A stretch of 64,000 nt of DNA from Brevibacillus sedimenti. Its GTDB lineage: Bacteria; Bacillota; Bacilli; Brevibacillales; Brevibacillaceae. The stretch's first letter is position 1, and every line of letters begins with the position of its first letter. The notes beneath the pieces are model-generated. The model did no database searches and had not been told where the DNA came from. It saw only the letters and a program-made list of their open reading frames with translations. The translations under genes and the position numbers were made by a program. Below are positions 35,011 to 42,814 of the stretch, piece by piece. Location: positions 707,501 through 771,500 of the forward strand of contig NZ_CP064048.1 of the NCBI RefSeq assembly GCF_020923495.1. The letters are read 5' to 3'.

Positions 35011-36895
<1,885 letters not shown>

Positions 36896-40595: not shown

Positions 40596-41911
40596 AGATG
40601 CCGCTGCGGCTGCGCGTTCTGCCGAATAATCGTTTCCAATTCATCGCGGGGCAACTCCCTGATGATGCGAATGAAATGATAGGCCAGTTCGGCGTCGAAC
40701 TGCGTCCCCGCCCCGCGGCTGATCTCCTGCAGGGCCTCCTCCACCGGCAGTCCTTTGCGGTACGGCCTGTCCGCCACCATCGCGTCGAAGGCGTCAGAGA
40801 TGGCCAGAATGCGGGCCATCAGCGGAATCTCTTCGCCAGCCAATCCGTCCGGATAGCCCTTGCCGTCGATTCGCTCATGGTGCGAACGGATGGCCGGCAG
40901 CAGTTCGTGAAACATGCCCGCCTGCAGGATGATATCATATCCAATCACCGTGTGCTGCTTGATCTTGTCGTACTCCTCCGGTGTTAATTTTCCACGTTTG
41001 TTGAGAATCTGATCCTCAATGCCGATTTTGCCGATGTCGTGCAAAATCCCGCCAAAATACACCTCCGCCGCCTTCTCCTCCGACAGCCCGATCGCCCGGG
41101 CAATCTCCCGTCCCCAGTGAGCCACCCGCTGGGAATGGCCGCTCGTGTAATGGTCACGGGCATCGATGGAAGCAGCCATGGCAGTGAGGAACTTGTGATT
41201 GAAGGATTTGATCTCGTCCATTTTTTGAGCGAGTTTGTGAATGCTTTCATAATATTGCCGTAAGACGATACTAATAATGACAAAAGCCGCTACCAAAGGG
41301 ATGAGTGCAAGTACTCCGTAGTGATCAACCAGTCTTGCTCCCATACCCCCTATTATCAAAAGCATAATGTAGGTAGCGGAACCGCGTGTCAACATGTTTT
41401 TCACAGCAGTCGTCCAGAGAACACCGCTGTAGAAAGCGATCAAAATGGCACATAGCAGAGTGTTTACAAGCCAATATGCAAGGATCAGCAACAGGTCGGA
41501 AATCGCCCAAGGAACATGAAGTGTTTGCAAGCAGGTATGCACCCAGCCAACAATCCAGACCGTCGACAGCATTTGACCCGCGTTGGCCATTGTACGAGCA
41601 ACGGAAGATCGAAACAAGAACCCAAGGATGATAACCTCCAGCAAACAAGACCAAACGGCTACCCATTCTCCCCACAGTAAAAGGCCCGACAGGATCACGG
41701 CATTATTAAGCGTTAACGTCGCATCAGGCGTCCGGAACGGAGCAAACGAACAGATAATGGTAAGCAGTGTAAAAGCAACCAAAACAGGCAAGTGGCTTTT
41801 TGGCTCCCAATACGGCAGCGCCAACAAGACCATGAAAATAACTACCGCAGGAAAAACTGCATGGATAATCAGACGCTGCAACAGTTTATCACCTTGAGTG
41901 TTTACCTGCAT
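40577..41911 (-). CDS. Membrane HD-GYP domain protein, probable c-di-GMP phosphodiesterase
   Basis: 444 residues. The N-terminal ~215 residues form six to eight transmembrane helices (MASE-like sensor). The C-terminal HD-GYP domain has all motifs: HSQRVAHWGREIA, GGILHDIGKIGI, HTVIGYDIILQ, HHERIDGKGYPDGL and ISDAFDAMVADRPYRKG. HD-GYP enzymes hydrolyse c-di-GMP. The ATG is preceded by AGAAGGA and lies inside the end of the DUF5317 gene (23-base overlap), so the two are coupled. The DNA of the membrane part is visibly AT-richer than its neighbours. Confidence 0.92.
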   Translation of the reverse strand: MQVNTQGDKLLQRLIIHAVFPAVVIFMVLLALPYWEPKSHLPVLVAFTLLTIICSFAPFRTPDATLTLNNAVILSGLLLWGEWVAVWSCLLEVIILGFLFRSSVARTMANAGQMLSTVWIVGWVHTCLQTLHVPWAISDLLLILAYWLVNTLLCAILIAFYSGVLWTTAVKNMLTRGSATYIMLLIIGGMGARLVDHYGVLALIPLVAAFVIISIVLRQYYESIHKLAQKMDEIKSFNHKFLTAMAASIDARDHYTSGHSQRVAHWGREIARAIGLSEEKAAEVYFGGILHDIGKIGIEDQILNKRGKLTPEEYDKIKQHTVIGYDIILQAGMFHELLPAIRSHHERIDGKGYPDGLAGEEIPLMARILAISDAFDAMVADRPYRKGLPVEEALQEISRGAGTQFDAELAYHFIRIIRELPRDELETIIRQNAQPQRHLQEVAR

Positions 41912-42443
41912 AATTTTTTCCTTCTCTCAGCCTTATTAAAGATACCGGCTTACTCATAAGTCGCTGCACTAATAAGAAGGCTCCCAACATGATGAACAGA
42001 TCACCGATGCTGATCACTCGAGGAATAATGAGAGGCTTGTAGATGGTGTCCGCTAGAAAAGGCAGGTTTGTATCCACAGTTAACGCAATGTGTTTGAAGT
42101 CTGTCCCATTCACCAGCGCATCAATGGGGTAGGACAATCGCTGCGCCTGCTCCAGATCAACCGGCATTTTCCCCATGTTCGCCCAAATGACCAACGCGTT
42201 TAACAACCAGCCAATCATGAATACACGCATATCCTCATGCTGACGGTTACTAAAGAAGAAATACAGCACAAACACATAGGATATGCTGACCAGCCACCCC
42301 GACCACTGGGGAACAAACTGTGACATGATTTGCAATCCAATACTGGCAATGAGACTCCACAATGCTGCAAACTTTGGCAACTCTTTTATCCGGCCGCCTC
42401 GGAAAAATCCAATCGCAAAAGAAAGAGCGACGACATCAAGCAT
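41889..42443 (-). CDS. DUF5317 family membrane protein
   Basis: 184 residues with about five hydrophobic segments; opening MLDVVALSFAIGFFRGGRIK and middle NALVIWANMGKMPVD are typical of DUF5317 proteins, which have no known function. It overlaps the HD-GYP gene by 23 bases. ATG 42443 has GGGAGGGG 5 bases upstream; an ATG 6 codons earlier lacks one. A terminator hairpin (42466-42494) lies just upstream, so expression probably depends on read-through from the peptide gene or an unseen promoter. Confidence 0.8.
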   Translation of the reverse strand: MLDVVALSFAIGFFRGGRIKELPKFAALWSLIASIGLQIMSQFVPQWSGWLVSISYVFVLYFFFSNRQHEDMRVFMIGWLLNALVIWANMGKMPVDLEQAQRLSYPIDALVNGTDFKHIALTVDTNLPFLADTIYKPLIIPRVISIGDLFIMLGAFLLVQRLMSKPVSLIRLREGKNYAGKHSR

Positions 42444-42465
42444 GTAAGCCCCTCCCAACACAGTG

Positions 42466-42494
42466 AAAAAACACCACTAAAAAGCGGTGTTTTT
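42466..42494 (-). terminator. Terminator between the small peptide gene and the DUF5317 gene
   Basis: AAAAACACCGCT / AGTGGTGTTTTTT stem with a 4-base loop; both flanks make it bidirectional. It ends the peptide transcript and would throttle expression of the DUF5317/HD-GYP pair. Confidence 0.8.
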
Positions 42495-42518
42495 CCGCGA
42501 ACAACGCTATTATGTCTA

Positions 42519-42596
42519 TTACCAAGACGTCCAGTTTGCAGAAGTTGCAGCAACAATACCGGCTACCAGCAGGACAGCAACGAACCATTTTTTCAT
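42519..42596 (-). CDS. 25-residue secreted peptide precursor, novel
   Basis: MKKWFVAVLLVAGIVAATSA followed by NWTSW and a TAA stop. The first 20 residues are a complete signal peptide (two Lys, hydrophobic core, A-T-S-A cleavage site), leaving a mature pentapeptide NWTSW. The SD GGGGGG has 7-base spacing to this ATG; an ATG two codons upstream is too close. Size and layout recall Phr-type signalling peptides, but I know no match. A leader of about 180 bases with two structured RNA repeats precedes it and a terminator follows, so it is a deliberate transcription unit, upstream of DUF5317 and HD-GYP genes. Confidence 0.7.
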   Translation of the reverse strand: MKKWFVAVLLVAGIVAATSANWTSW

Positions 42597-42624
42597 TCCC
42601 ATTCCCCCCTTTTCCATAGTGGAG

Positions 42625-42778
42625 AAAGCTGGTTTCGCTACTTGGGAAGACACAGGCCAAGCGACCACATACAGCCTGTGCCCGGCTTTCCTCTTTCCGT
42701 TCGAAAAGAGGGCGGATTCGCTACTGGCTCCGTACAGACCAAGCGACCAAATACAGTCTGTACCTCATCGCGCTTCCT
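42625..42778 (-). ncRNA. Tandem pseudoknot-like RNA motif in the leader of the peptide gene (candidate riboswitch)
   Basis: Two related units on the minus strand. Unit A: stem GTACAGAC/GTCTGTAC (42763-42756 with 42739-42732) closing the 16-base loop TGTATTTGGTCGCTTG, then GTAGCGAATCC (42724-42714). Unit B: stem CACAGGC/GCCTGTG (42680-42674 with 42657-42651) closing TGTATGTGGTCGCTTG, then GTAGCGAAACC (42641-42631). Loop TCGCT can pair with AGCGA downstream in both, forming a pseudoknot. The stems covary while loops are conserved (15 of 16). Unit B has an outer GAAAGC/GCTTTC helix, and a CTCTTT/AAAGAG hairpin lies between the units. It does not match the GEMM c-di-GMP or other riboswitches I know. 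Confidence 0.7.
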
Positions 42779-42784
42779 ACCTAT

Positions 42785-42814
42785 ATTTTACACGTTGATG
42801 ACAAATTTCGGCAA
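42785..42814 (-). promoter_or_regulatory. Promoter of the structured leader and peptide gene
   Basis: Minus strand: -35 TTGCCG (42809-42814), 18-base spacer, -10 TAAAAT (42785-42790). Start would fall near 42778, just before RNA unit A. Confidence 0.55.

Follow-up and report, generated by a model that had tools for sequence, protein, structure and literature searches.

The locus studied here raises the question of why a tandem structured RNA should precede a gene of just 25 codons, and what both have to do with the membrane-protein and phosphodiesterase genes that follow. All positions refer to the window, that is, the whole stretch of 64,000 nucleotides of Brevibacillus sedimenti DNA that was analysed (Table 1); loci and genomes from the comparison carry L and G numbers. 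The original prediction had placed at this locus a 25-residue peptide gene, then a terminator-like hairpin and genes for DUF5317 and HD-GYP proteins, and all of them are present.

A permissive covariance scan of the region identified the feature, on the minus strand, as a tandem c-di-GMP-II riboswitch (RF01786) of two units. Both align to the model from end to end; against the curated (gathering) cut-off of 53.5 bits, unit 1 lies 0.3 bits below and unit 2 scores 27.1, its alignment missing six model positions on the 5′ side of the kink-turn. Orthologous copies of unit 1 pass the cut-off in G009, G016, G019, G010, G014, G023 and G003, and matches with an E value of 1 or better occur in 52 of 99 relatives' genomes, including all 26 of the own genus, Brevibacillus. 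P1, P3 and the loop-tail pseudoknot are all present. The pseudoknot differs from the Rfam consensus by compensatory substitutions (GCAC/GUGC to UCGC/GCGA), and its letters are nearly invariant within the family. P3 covaries between the units and between species: pair 4 of unit 1 is GC, AT or GT and pair 5 CG or TA, and pair 3 of unit 2 is GC or AT and pair 5 GC, CG or AT. Unit 1 was also compared with the c-di-GMP-II-GCG and -GAG variant families and stays below both cut-offs (RF03170, 38.9 bits against 47.9; RF03169, 34.7 against 40), scoring higher with RF01786 than with either. At curated cut-offs, Rfam reports no riboswitch in the whole window, only pieces of a group II intron elsewhere (36512-36811, minus strand; RF02001 149.3 bits, RF01998 70.3 bits). 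The RNA is a variant of the known class c-di-GMP-II and not a new class, and either unit is predicted to bind c-di-GMP.

The tandem is found in 25 of the 26 own-genus genomes, the exception being G015, where the peptide gene stands without such a riboswitch, and four further genomes of the family carry tandem (G028, G031) or single-unit (G027, G032) forms. The pattern TRTNTGGTCGCTTGG has two matches in the 3.93-Mb genome, only these two units; the core DNA pattern matches named Brevibacillus species, with scattered single matches in other phyla. Because plain fold stability is unremarkable (the single-strand folding energy of the two units is not unusually low, z -1.49), support for the RNA comes from comparison and not from energy. 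Much of what had been predicted from the letters was borne out: the 16-base loops (TGTATTTGGTCGCTTG, TGTATGTGGTCGCTTG) are identical at 15 positions, the closing stems GTACAGAC/GTCTGTAC and CACAGGC/GCCTGTG differ in sequence and keep their pairing, and the loop TCGCT can pair with the tail AGCGA in both units. A selected, covarying, pseudoknotted tandem RNA was likewise the right description, given the covariation of P3 and the 25 genomes with the tandem, and so was the guess that the ligand relates to c-di-GMP, the class being c-di-GMP-II. Two units were expected and found, but their length is about 80 nt once the outer P1 stems are counted, not ~55 bases. The original prediction did not include the kink-turn loss in unit 2, the joint exchange of peptide tail and HD-GYP sensory domain, or the occurrence of the peptide next to DUF5317 and HD-GYP genes across Bacillota.

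Table 1. Features of the peptide locus in the window, with the evidence for each.
Feature	Position	Strand	Evidence
c-di-GMP-II aptamer unit 1, kink-turn motif kept	42701..42783	-	RF01786 53.2 bits, E 4.6e-11, model 1-84
c-di-GMP-II aptamer unit 2, kink-turn lost	42618..42696	-	RF01786 27.1 bits, E 0.0011
P1 3′ strand of unit 2, AGCTTTCTCC, candidate anti-Shine-Dalgarno	42621..42630	-	pairing prediction
Shine-Dalgarno GGGGGG of peptide gene	42604..42609	-	sequence
Prepeptide MKKWFVAVLLVAGIVAATSANWTSW, 25 residues: signal-like codons 1-20 and tail NWTSW	42519..42596	-	ORF, conservation
Terminator-like hairpin, peptide gene to DUF5317	about 42466..42497	-	hairpin pattern
DUF5317 membrane protein	41889..42443	-	PF17248 E 6.5e-32
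Membrane HD-GYP c-di-GMP phosphodiesterase (predicted), 444 aa	40577..41911	-	HD_5 E 1.4e-39
ECF-S-like domain of HD-GYP protein (predicted), residues 36-201	about 41806-41309	-	predicted structure match
Catalytic domain of HD-GYP protein, residues from about 232	41218-40580	-	HD_5; structure match
Exchanged block: tail codons 21-25, terminator, DUF5317, HD-GYP N-terminal domain	41216..42536	-	identity, trees, AU tests

The two units are not equivalent in the own genus, where the 3′ kink-turn motif is kept in 25/25 unit 1 copies and in 0/25 unit 2 copies of the tandems. In other genera of the family the motif is present in 4/4 unit 1 and 2/2 unit 2 copies, unit 2 of the tandems of two such genera (G028 and G031) having retained it. 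The loop TGGTCGCTTGG is invariant in both units despite the kink-turn loss in unit 2. By eye, the linker CCTCTTTTCGAACGGAAAGAGG (42690-42711, minus strand) may form a hairpin competing with P1 of both units, and part of it, CCCTCTTTTC, might also pair with GAAAAGGGGG at the ribosome site; a competing linker hairpin is a possible logic between the two units. In other genomes of the family, L042, L044, L051, L057 and L069 carry a canonical c-di-GMP-II riboswitch with the core GTGGGCACTTGAATGG before a different gene, a terminator-like hairpin following the core. The gene start after the riboswitch resembles Protoglobin in L044, as in HemAT-like oxygen sensors (E 2.9e-5, just short of the cut-off), and the gene fragment downstream in L051 gave no domain match.

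What the tandem may control is indicated by its 3′ end. In the predicted ensemble for the window, the Shine-Dalgarno sequence of the peptide gene is paired with the 3′ strand of unit 2 P1 at P 0.89, and the same pairing exceeds P 0.5 in 21 of 29 leaders and was not seen in 8. Because the anti-Shine-Dalgarno strand also builds aptamer P1, ligand binding should free the ribosome site, and in this pairing model c-di-GMP would turn peptide translation ON. A match to the terminator-like hairpin pattern lies 13-26 nt past the peptide stop in 28 of 29 loci.

The peptide is 25 residues long in all 29 tabulated loci, 25 from the own genus and 4 from other genera of the family. It has the form MKK[WL]...IVAATSA followed by five tail residues, and the tails comprise NFHIG, NYNIG, NYHIG, NWTSW, NWHIG, NYNFG, NFNIG, NFHVG, NWYVG, HFNVT, AWNIT and NYHFG. 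With pN/pS at 0.19 over codons 2-20 (0.40 for the tail), the signal-like part is, as judged from substitutions, under purifying selection. Five representative tiny peptides fell below every Pfam and NCBIfam cut-off (best LptM, E 0.044, and DUF4148, E 0.43). The peptide is predicted to be exported and cleaved, and the product may diffuse between cells.

A domain scan of the neighbouring proteins returned DUF5317, HD-GYP, DUF4760, ArgG and ArgF. The HD-GYP protein carries the signatures HDIGK and HHERIDGKGYP in its translation, and the C-terminal half of its model matches the HD-GYP phosphodiesterase structures 4mcw and 9rbz; by these marks it is an HD-GYP c-di-GMP phosphodiesterase, predicted to hydrolyse c-di-GMP. 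Since the genome has 5 GGDEF genes, c-di-GMP is probably made. The HD-GYP gene is split over two frames in G031 (L067 / L092; 149 + 280 aa) and in L218 (254 + 161 aa), and these are perhaps broken genes or sequencing errors.

The N-terminal part of the HD-GYP protein has no Pfam match. In an AlphaFold2 model of moderate confidence (9 sequences, pLDDT 73.6, pTM 0.51), residues 36-201 match TmRibU with a Z of 15.0 and an rmsd of 3.1 (157 of 171 aligned), and other ECF S-components, PanT, BioY, FolT and ThiT among them, with Z 10-15, bearing in mind that helical models can score high Z by chance. The Foldseek E value for TmRibU is weak at 0.043, though its probability is 1.00. Among the first 25 structure-match rows, 20 are ECF S or Ni/Co M subunits. 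We propose that the N-terminal domain has an ECF S-component fold, as the model predicts. The start of DUF5317 was set at ATG 42443, the mechanical ORF beginning at GTG 42461. Its model reaches pLDDT 80.8; Foldseek gave no fold match at E 0.001 or better, there was no PDB sequence match, and the best VIA-align Z of 6.5 came from just 34 chains and is uninformative. D131 and S144-x-G146-D147 are invariant in 82 DUF5317 sequences, and this SxGD motif recalls the GxGD intramembrane aspartyl proteases, a likeness that is only a hint.

Parts of the locus are exchanged between species. Against G022 (B. thermoruber), the window shows 92-98% DNA identity in most 60-nt bins across argF, the riboswitch and codons 1-20 of the peptide, with three lower upstream bins (81, 80 and 65%). 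Identity then drops to 35-78%, beginning at codon 21 and covering the terminator, DUF5317 and the first 230 or so residues of HD-GYP, and is 92-98% again over most of the catalytic domain. A second case is provided by G013/G019 (tail NYNIG) against G005/G018 (NFHIG), with 98-100% in codons 1-20, then 43-83%, and 95-98% at about +1560. Trees of 27 rows, leaving out G007 (contig break), G031 (HD-GYP split) and G015 (not tabulated), follow the same division: the window joins G022 in the carB+argF tree and the HD catalytic-domain tree (98 and 99), and joins the other NWTSW species in the tree of DUF5317 with the HD N-terminus (100). AU tests reject the alternatives with p values of 6.9e-5, 6.0e-8 and 1.9e-5, and 1.3e-4 for the G013/G019 case, which are optimistic because the clades were named after the identities had been seen. 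Because the NWTSW blocks of the window and B. reuszeri are just about 73-74% identical in protein, the donor of the block is no sampled genome.

Beyond Brevibacillus, DUF5317 (PF17248) occurs in 101 of 348 sampled genomes of the phylum, and in 26/26 of the own genus. From 108 DUF5317 loci listed outside the own genome we examined 100, the 8 left out being 6 ordinary and 2 weak ones. An HD-GYP gene adjoins DUF5317 in 86 of the 100 loci examined outside the family. Beside these pairs a signal-like tiny ORF was found in 69 of 86 cases versus 11 of 107 control pairs, and the strict short-tail type in 54 versus 3, the control pairs being neighbouring genes taken from 13 stretches, each 20 kb long, of genomes in that same sample. 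A smaller first control of 47 genes in the same loci gave 7 loose and 2 strict matches, and DUF5317 loci without HD-GYP have the strict peptide type in 1 of 14. In many peptides outside the family, ...L-A-G-G-A is followed by N/S/H/T, by an aromatic or aliphatic residue, frequently by K/R/S/T/Q, and then by W/F/L/I with or without G; their tails are close to those of Brevibacillus.

The rule-based search found no peptide in 17 of the 86 DUF5317/HD-GYP loci, some of them at contig ends (contig ends cut L226, L136 and L168), and four rule-missed peptides were recovered by eye (L200, L184, L135 and L119). The rule-based matches in L169, counted among the 69, look spurious by eye, and by rule and eye a peptide is apparently lacking in L164, L165, L167, L169, L170, L183, L155, L172, L180, L181 and L218. 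In L192 (G216), DUF5317 and HD-GYP flank two near-identical tandem copies of the peptide gene, each ending SAWAGWRW. We scanned 99 of the 100 survey loci (L136 left out) and the Brevibacillus locus L159 for riboswitches. At Rfam cut-offs, a c-di-GMP riboswitch leads the module in 1 of the 99 survey loci outside the family, which rules it out as a general feature of the module. In that one locus (G206, L219:3638-3720, minus strand), a c-di-GMP-I-GGC riboswitch of 73.1 bits lies just upstream of DUF5317, the peptide (tail KVPWH) and HD-GYP, and is an independent coupling of a c-di-GMP riboswitch to the module. L143 has a c-di-GMP-I riboswitch on the opposite strand, near a DUF5317 gene without HD-GYP.

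The common gene order elsewhere is peptide, HD-GYP, DUF5317. With this order the low-identity region extends from the tail as far as about +720, where the HD N-terminal domain ends, and DUF5317 is for the most part unaffected. In L121/L122 the signal parts are identical and the tails are NYTWG and NLSWQ, with identities of 99% for the catalytic domain, 56% for the N-termini and 97% for DUF5317. The same dip is seen in L130/L223, L223/L135, L224/L148 and L224/L227, less clearly in L222/L119 and in part in L118/L121; L206/L211, whose tails are identical, has none. From 98 loci with a peptide and an HD-GYP gene (at least 380 residues or tabulated; 71 outside the family), 22 disjoint pairs have catalytic domains at least 88% identical. 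Across these, the more the tails differ, the further N-terminal identity falls below catalytic identity (rho -0.90, p 1.1e-8); for DUF5317 identity relative to catalytic identity the corresponding rho is -0.67. The parts are linked, and the identical-tail pairs are mostly the closest ones. Among the 13 pairs with catalytic identity of 96% or more, tail distance against N-terminal divergence gave rho -0.89. The 8 pairs with identical tails have N-termini 80-100% identical; for the 14 with different tails the range is 35-95%, and the N-terminal change can be small where tails differ (G020/G021 95%, L138/L146 85%, L127/L129 84%). These comparisons make the link between the tail and its presumed receptor well supported, and the HD-GYP N-terminal domain, which may bind the tail, is the candidate receptor.

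What comparison establishes, at the level of sequence, is which class the RNA belongs to, that the peptide is conserved, that the three genes form a module in Bacillota, and that tail and N-terminal domain are exchanged together. On this basis we think it probable that the peptide is pheromone-like and that a c-di-GMP phosphodiesterase senses it, with feedback by c-di-GMP at this locus. In such a system, c-di-GMP would be sensed by the two tandem c-di-GMP-II riboswitches, and formation of P1 in the last unit would free the ribosome site of the prepeptide, as in an ON switch. The prepeptide would consist of a signal sequence and a five-residue tail, which would be exported, released and recognised as cognate ligand by the ECF-S-like membrane domain in the downstream HD-GYP phosphodiesterase. 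Tail binding would alter c-di-GMP breakdown and so close a loop, whose feedback would be negative provided that the peptide activates the enzyme. DUF5317 could have an accessory role in the membrane, perhaps in processing or as a partner of the receptor. A wider claim, to which we give slightly less than even credence, is that the modules form a widespread Bacillota pheromone class. Bare signal sequences with tails of 4-10 residues would be cut, perhaps by DUF5317, and a domain of ECF-S fold, turned from vitamin capture to peptide sensing, would control the fused phosphodiesterase. Tail and receptor would be swapped between species as specificity types, and in Brevibacillus the tandem riboswitches, one without its kink-turn, would close the loop.

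The peptide might instead never be released, remaining a one-helix membrane subunit whose short tail points outward and sits in the sensory domain of the HD-GYP protein, acting there as a built-in ligand or regulator, with no cell-to-cell signal. Its size and hydrophobicity fit a single helix, and the coupling of tail and domain requires contact, not diffusion. The would-be signal peptidase site, however, has small residues throughout (ATSA in 29/29 family loci, GGA in many other loci), and a constant helix followed by a variable tail has the look of a cleaved signal, so that we hold a released pheromone to be the better reading and a retained subunit unlikely.

Another ligand for the riboswitch units, such as another cyclic dinucleotide, would change how the loop is fed. 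By our mapping of the numbering, positions 70 and 73 of the window units probably correspond to those of structure 3Q3Z. In the own genus, position 70 is U in 25/25 unit 1 copies, and at position 73 unit 1 has A in 9 copies and G in 16, whilst unit 2 has A in 24 of 25. Both positions are among the ligand contacts given for 3Q3Z (PMC7288161), and because they are changed, ligand affinity or preference may differ. That close relatives have either G or A at position 73 argues against a fixed switch of specificity, RF01786 outscores RF03169 and RF03170, and the module ends with a c-di-GMP phosphodiesterase, so that c-di-GMP stays our preferred ligand and a different one is improbable.

It is also quite improbable that the exchange stems from a hotspot of recombination, or from membrane domains being hypervariable in general, with the tail hitchhiking partnerless. 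Tail and receptor are physically linked, so recombination could couple them, and membrane domains evolve faster than catalytic ones; yet the block begins at the tail, the signal part just before it being 97-100% identical, and ends at the catalytic domain. It recurs in several lineages and spares DUF5317 where this gene lies outside it, and the absence of a dip in L206/L211 is likewise at odds with a hotspot. A leader peptide that controls terminator read-through by its own translation, or a small hydrophobic toxin, would be in keeping with the terminator-like hairpin past the stop and with the tiny, hydrophobic product. In G015 (L159:2966-3043), the peptide MKKIVYAFLLVAAIVGATSANWHIT with the tail NWHIT is followed by a terminator-like hairpin and DUF5317 without a c-di-GMP-II riboswitch, a canonical RF01786 match lying on another contig than the peptide locus; because the peptide stands there without the riboswitch, it is no by-product of the leader. 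Purifying selection on the protein, the occurrence of similar peptides in lineages that order the genes differently and lack this leader, and the coupling of the tail to the HD-GYP domain make either role highly implausible. Finally, the claim of the original prediction that the RNA fits no known class, which a unit 1 score just short of the cut-off and the departure of the pseudoknot letters from the consensus might seem to favour, is ruled out by the RF01786 match of unit 1 (E 4.6e-11), the end-to-end alignment, the compensatory pseudoknot changes and the orthologues above the cut-off, and a clear match to a known Rfam family was the very outcome that the prediction itself had named as refuting a new RNA class.

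If the proposed pheromone reading is true, peptide signals are tied directly to c-di-GMP breakdown in Bacillota, DUF5317 gains a setting, a group of membrane HD-GYP enzymes is supplied with an input, and the ECF S-component fold serves as a peptide receptor. The swapped types make the specificity of the tail directly testable by chimeras. The module of peptide, DUF5317 and HD-GYP appears to be undescribed. In the open-access literature we found no mention of 'DUF5317' (5.39 million papers) and, in the text available, no evident report of an HD-GYP protein as a peptide-signal receptor; Brevibacillus, riboswitch and c-di-GMP were not found together in open-access literature.

Among known systems, the window RNA shares with c-di-GMP-II (RF01786) the covariance match, P1, P3 and the pseudoknot, the kink-turn of unit 1 and the tandem form, but differs in the own-genus unit 2 without a kink-turn and in the changed pseudoknot letters and positions 70 and 73. 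Tandem c-di-GMP-II arrangements have been reported as 59 doublets and 9 triplets, and contiguous c-di-GMP riboswitches have been surveyed (PMC9481103, PMC12452182, respectively), with no mention of Brevibacillus in the available parts of either source. Most of those doublets and triplets precede a surface-anchor gene (PMC9481103), whereas the window tandem precedes a tiny peptide before an HD-GYP module. The HD-GYP residues 36-201 resemble the ECF S-components RibU, BioY, ThiT, FolT and PanT in predicted fold, but are fused here to an HD-GYP phosphodiesterase and have no Pfam match. In Thermotoga maritima, a short peptide, TM0504, is reportedly linked to exopolysaccharide and proposed to act together with c-di-GMP. 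The present module is similar in tying a short peptide to c-di-GMP, and the T. maritima genome has a DUF5317.

The Phr/PapR/Rgg-type (RRNPP) peptides are short tails released from signal-bearing precursors and have a cytosolic TPR receptor. The short tail on a signal-bearing precursor is common to both, but the presumed partner here is a membrane domain, and the six neighbouring products scanned include no cytosolic TPR receptor, so an RRNPP system with its receptor beside the peptide gene was rejected; a receptor encoded at a distance is conceivable. Agr-type quorum sensing was also rejected, with no AgrB or histidine-kinase receptor among the scanned neighbours and no cysteine in the tail NWTSW. 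In agr and comQXP loci, variation takes in the end of the pheromone, the processing or membrane gene and the N-terminus of the receptor as one block, and the receptor's catalytic part is conserved. Their output is a histidine kinase, whereas here it is an HD-GYP phosphodiesterase, and the tails of the module, 4-10 residues and nearly all without cysteine, end a prepeptide that is almost purely signal sequence; what the systems have in common is that the peptide tail and the N-terminus of the presumed receptor vary as a block and the catalytic part is kept.
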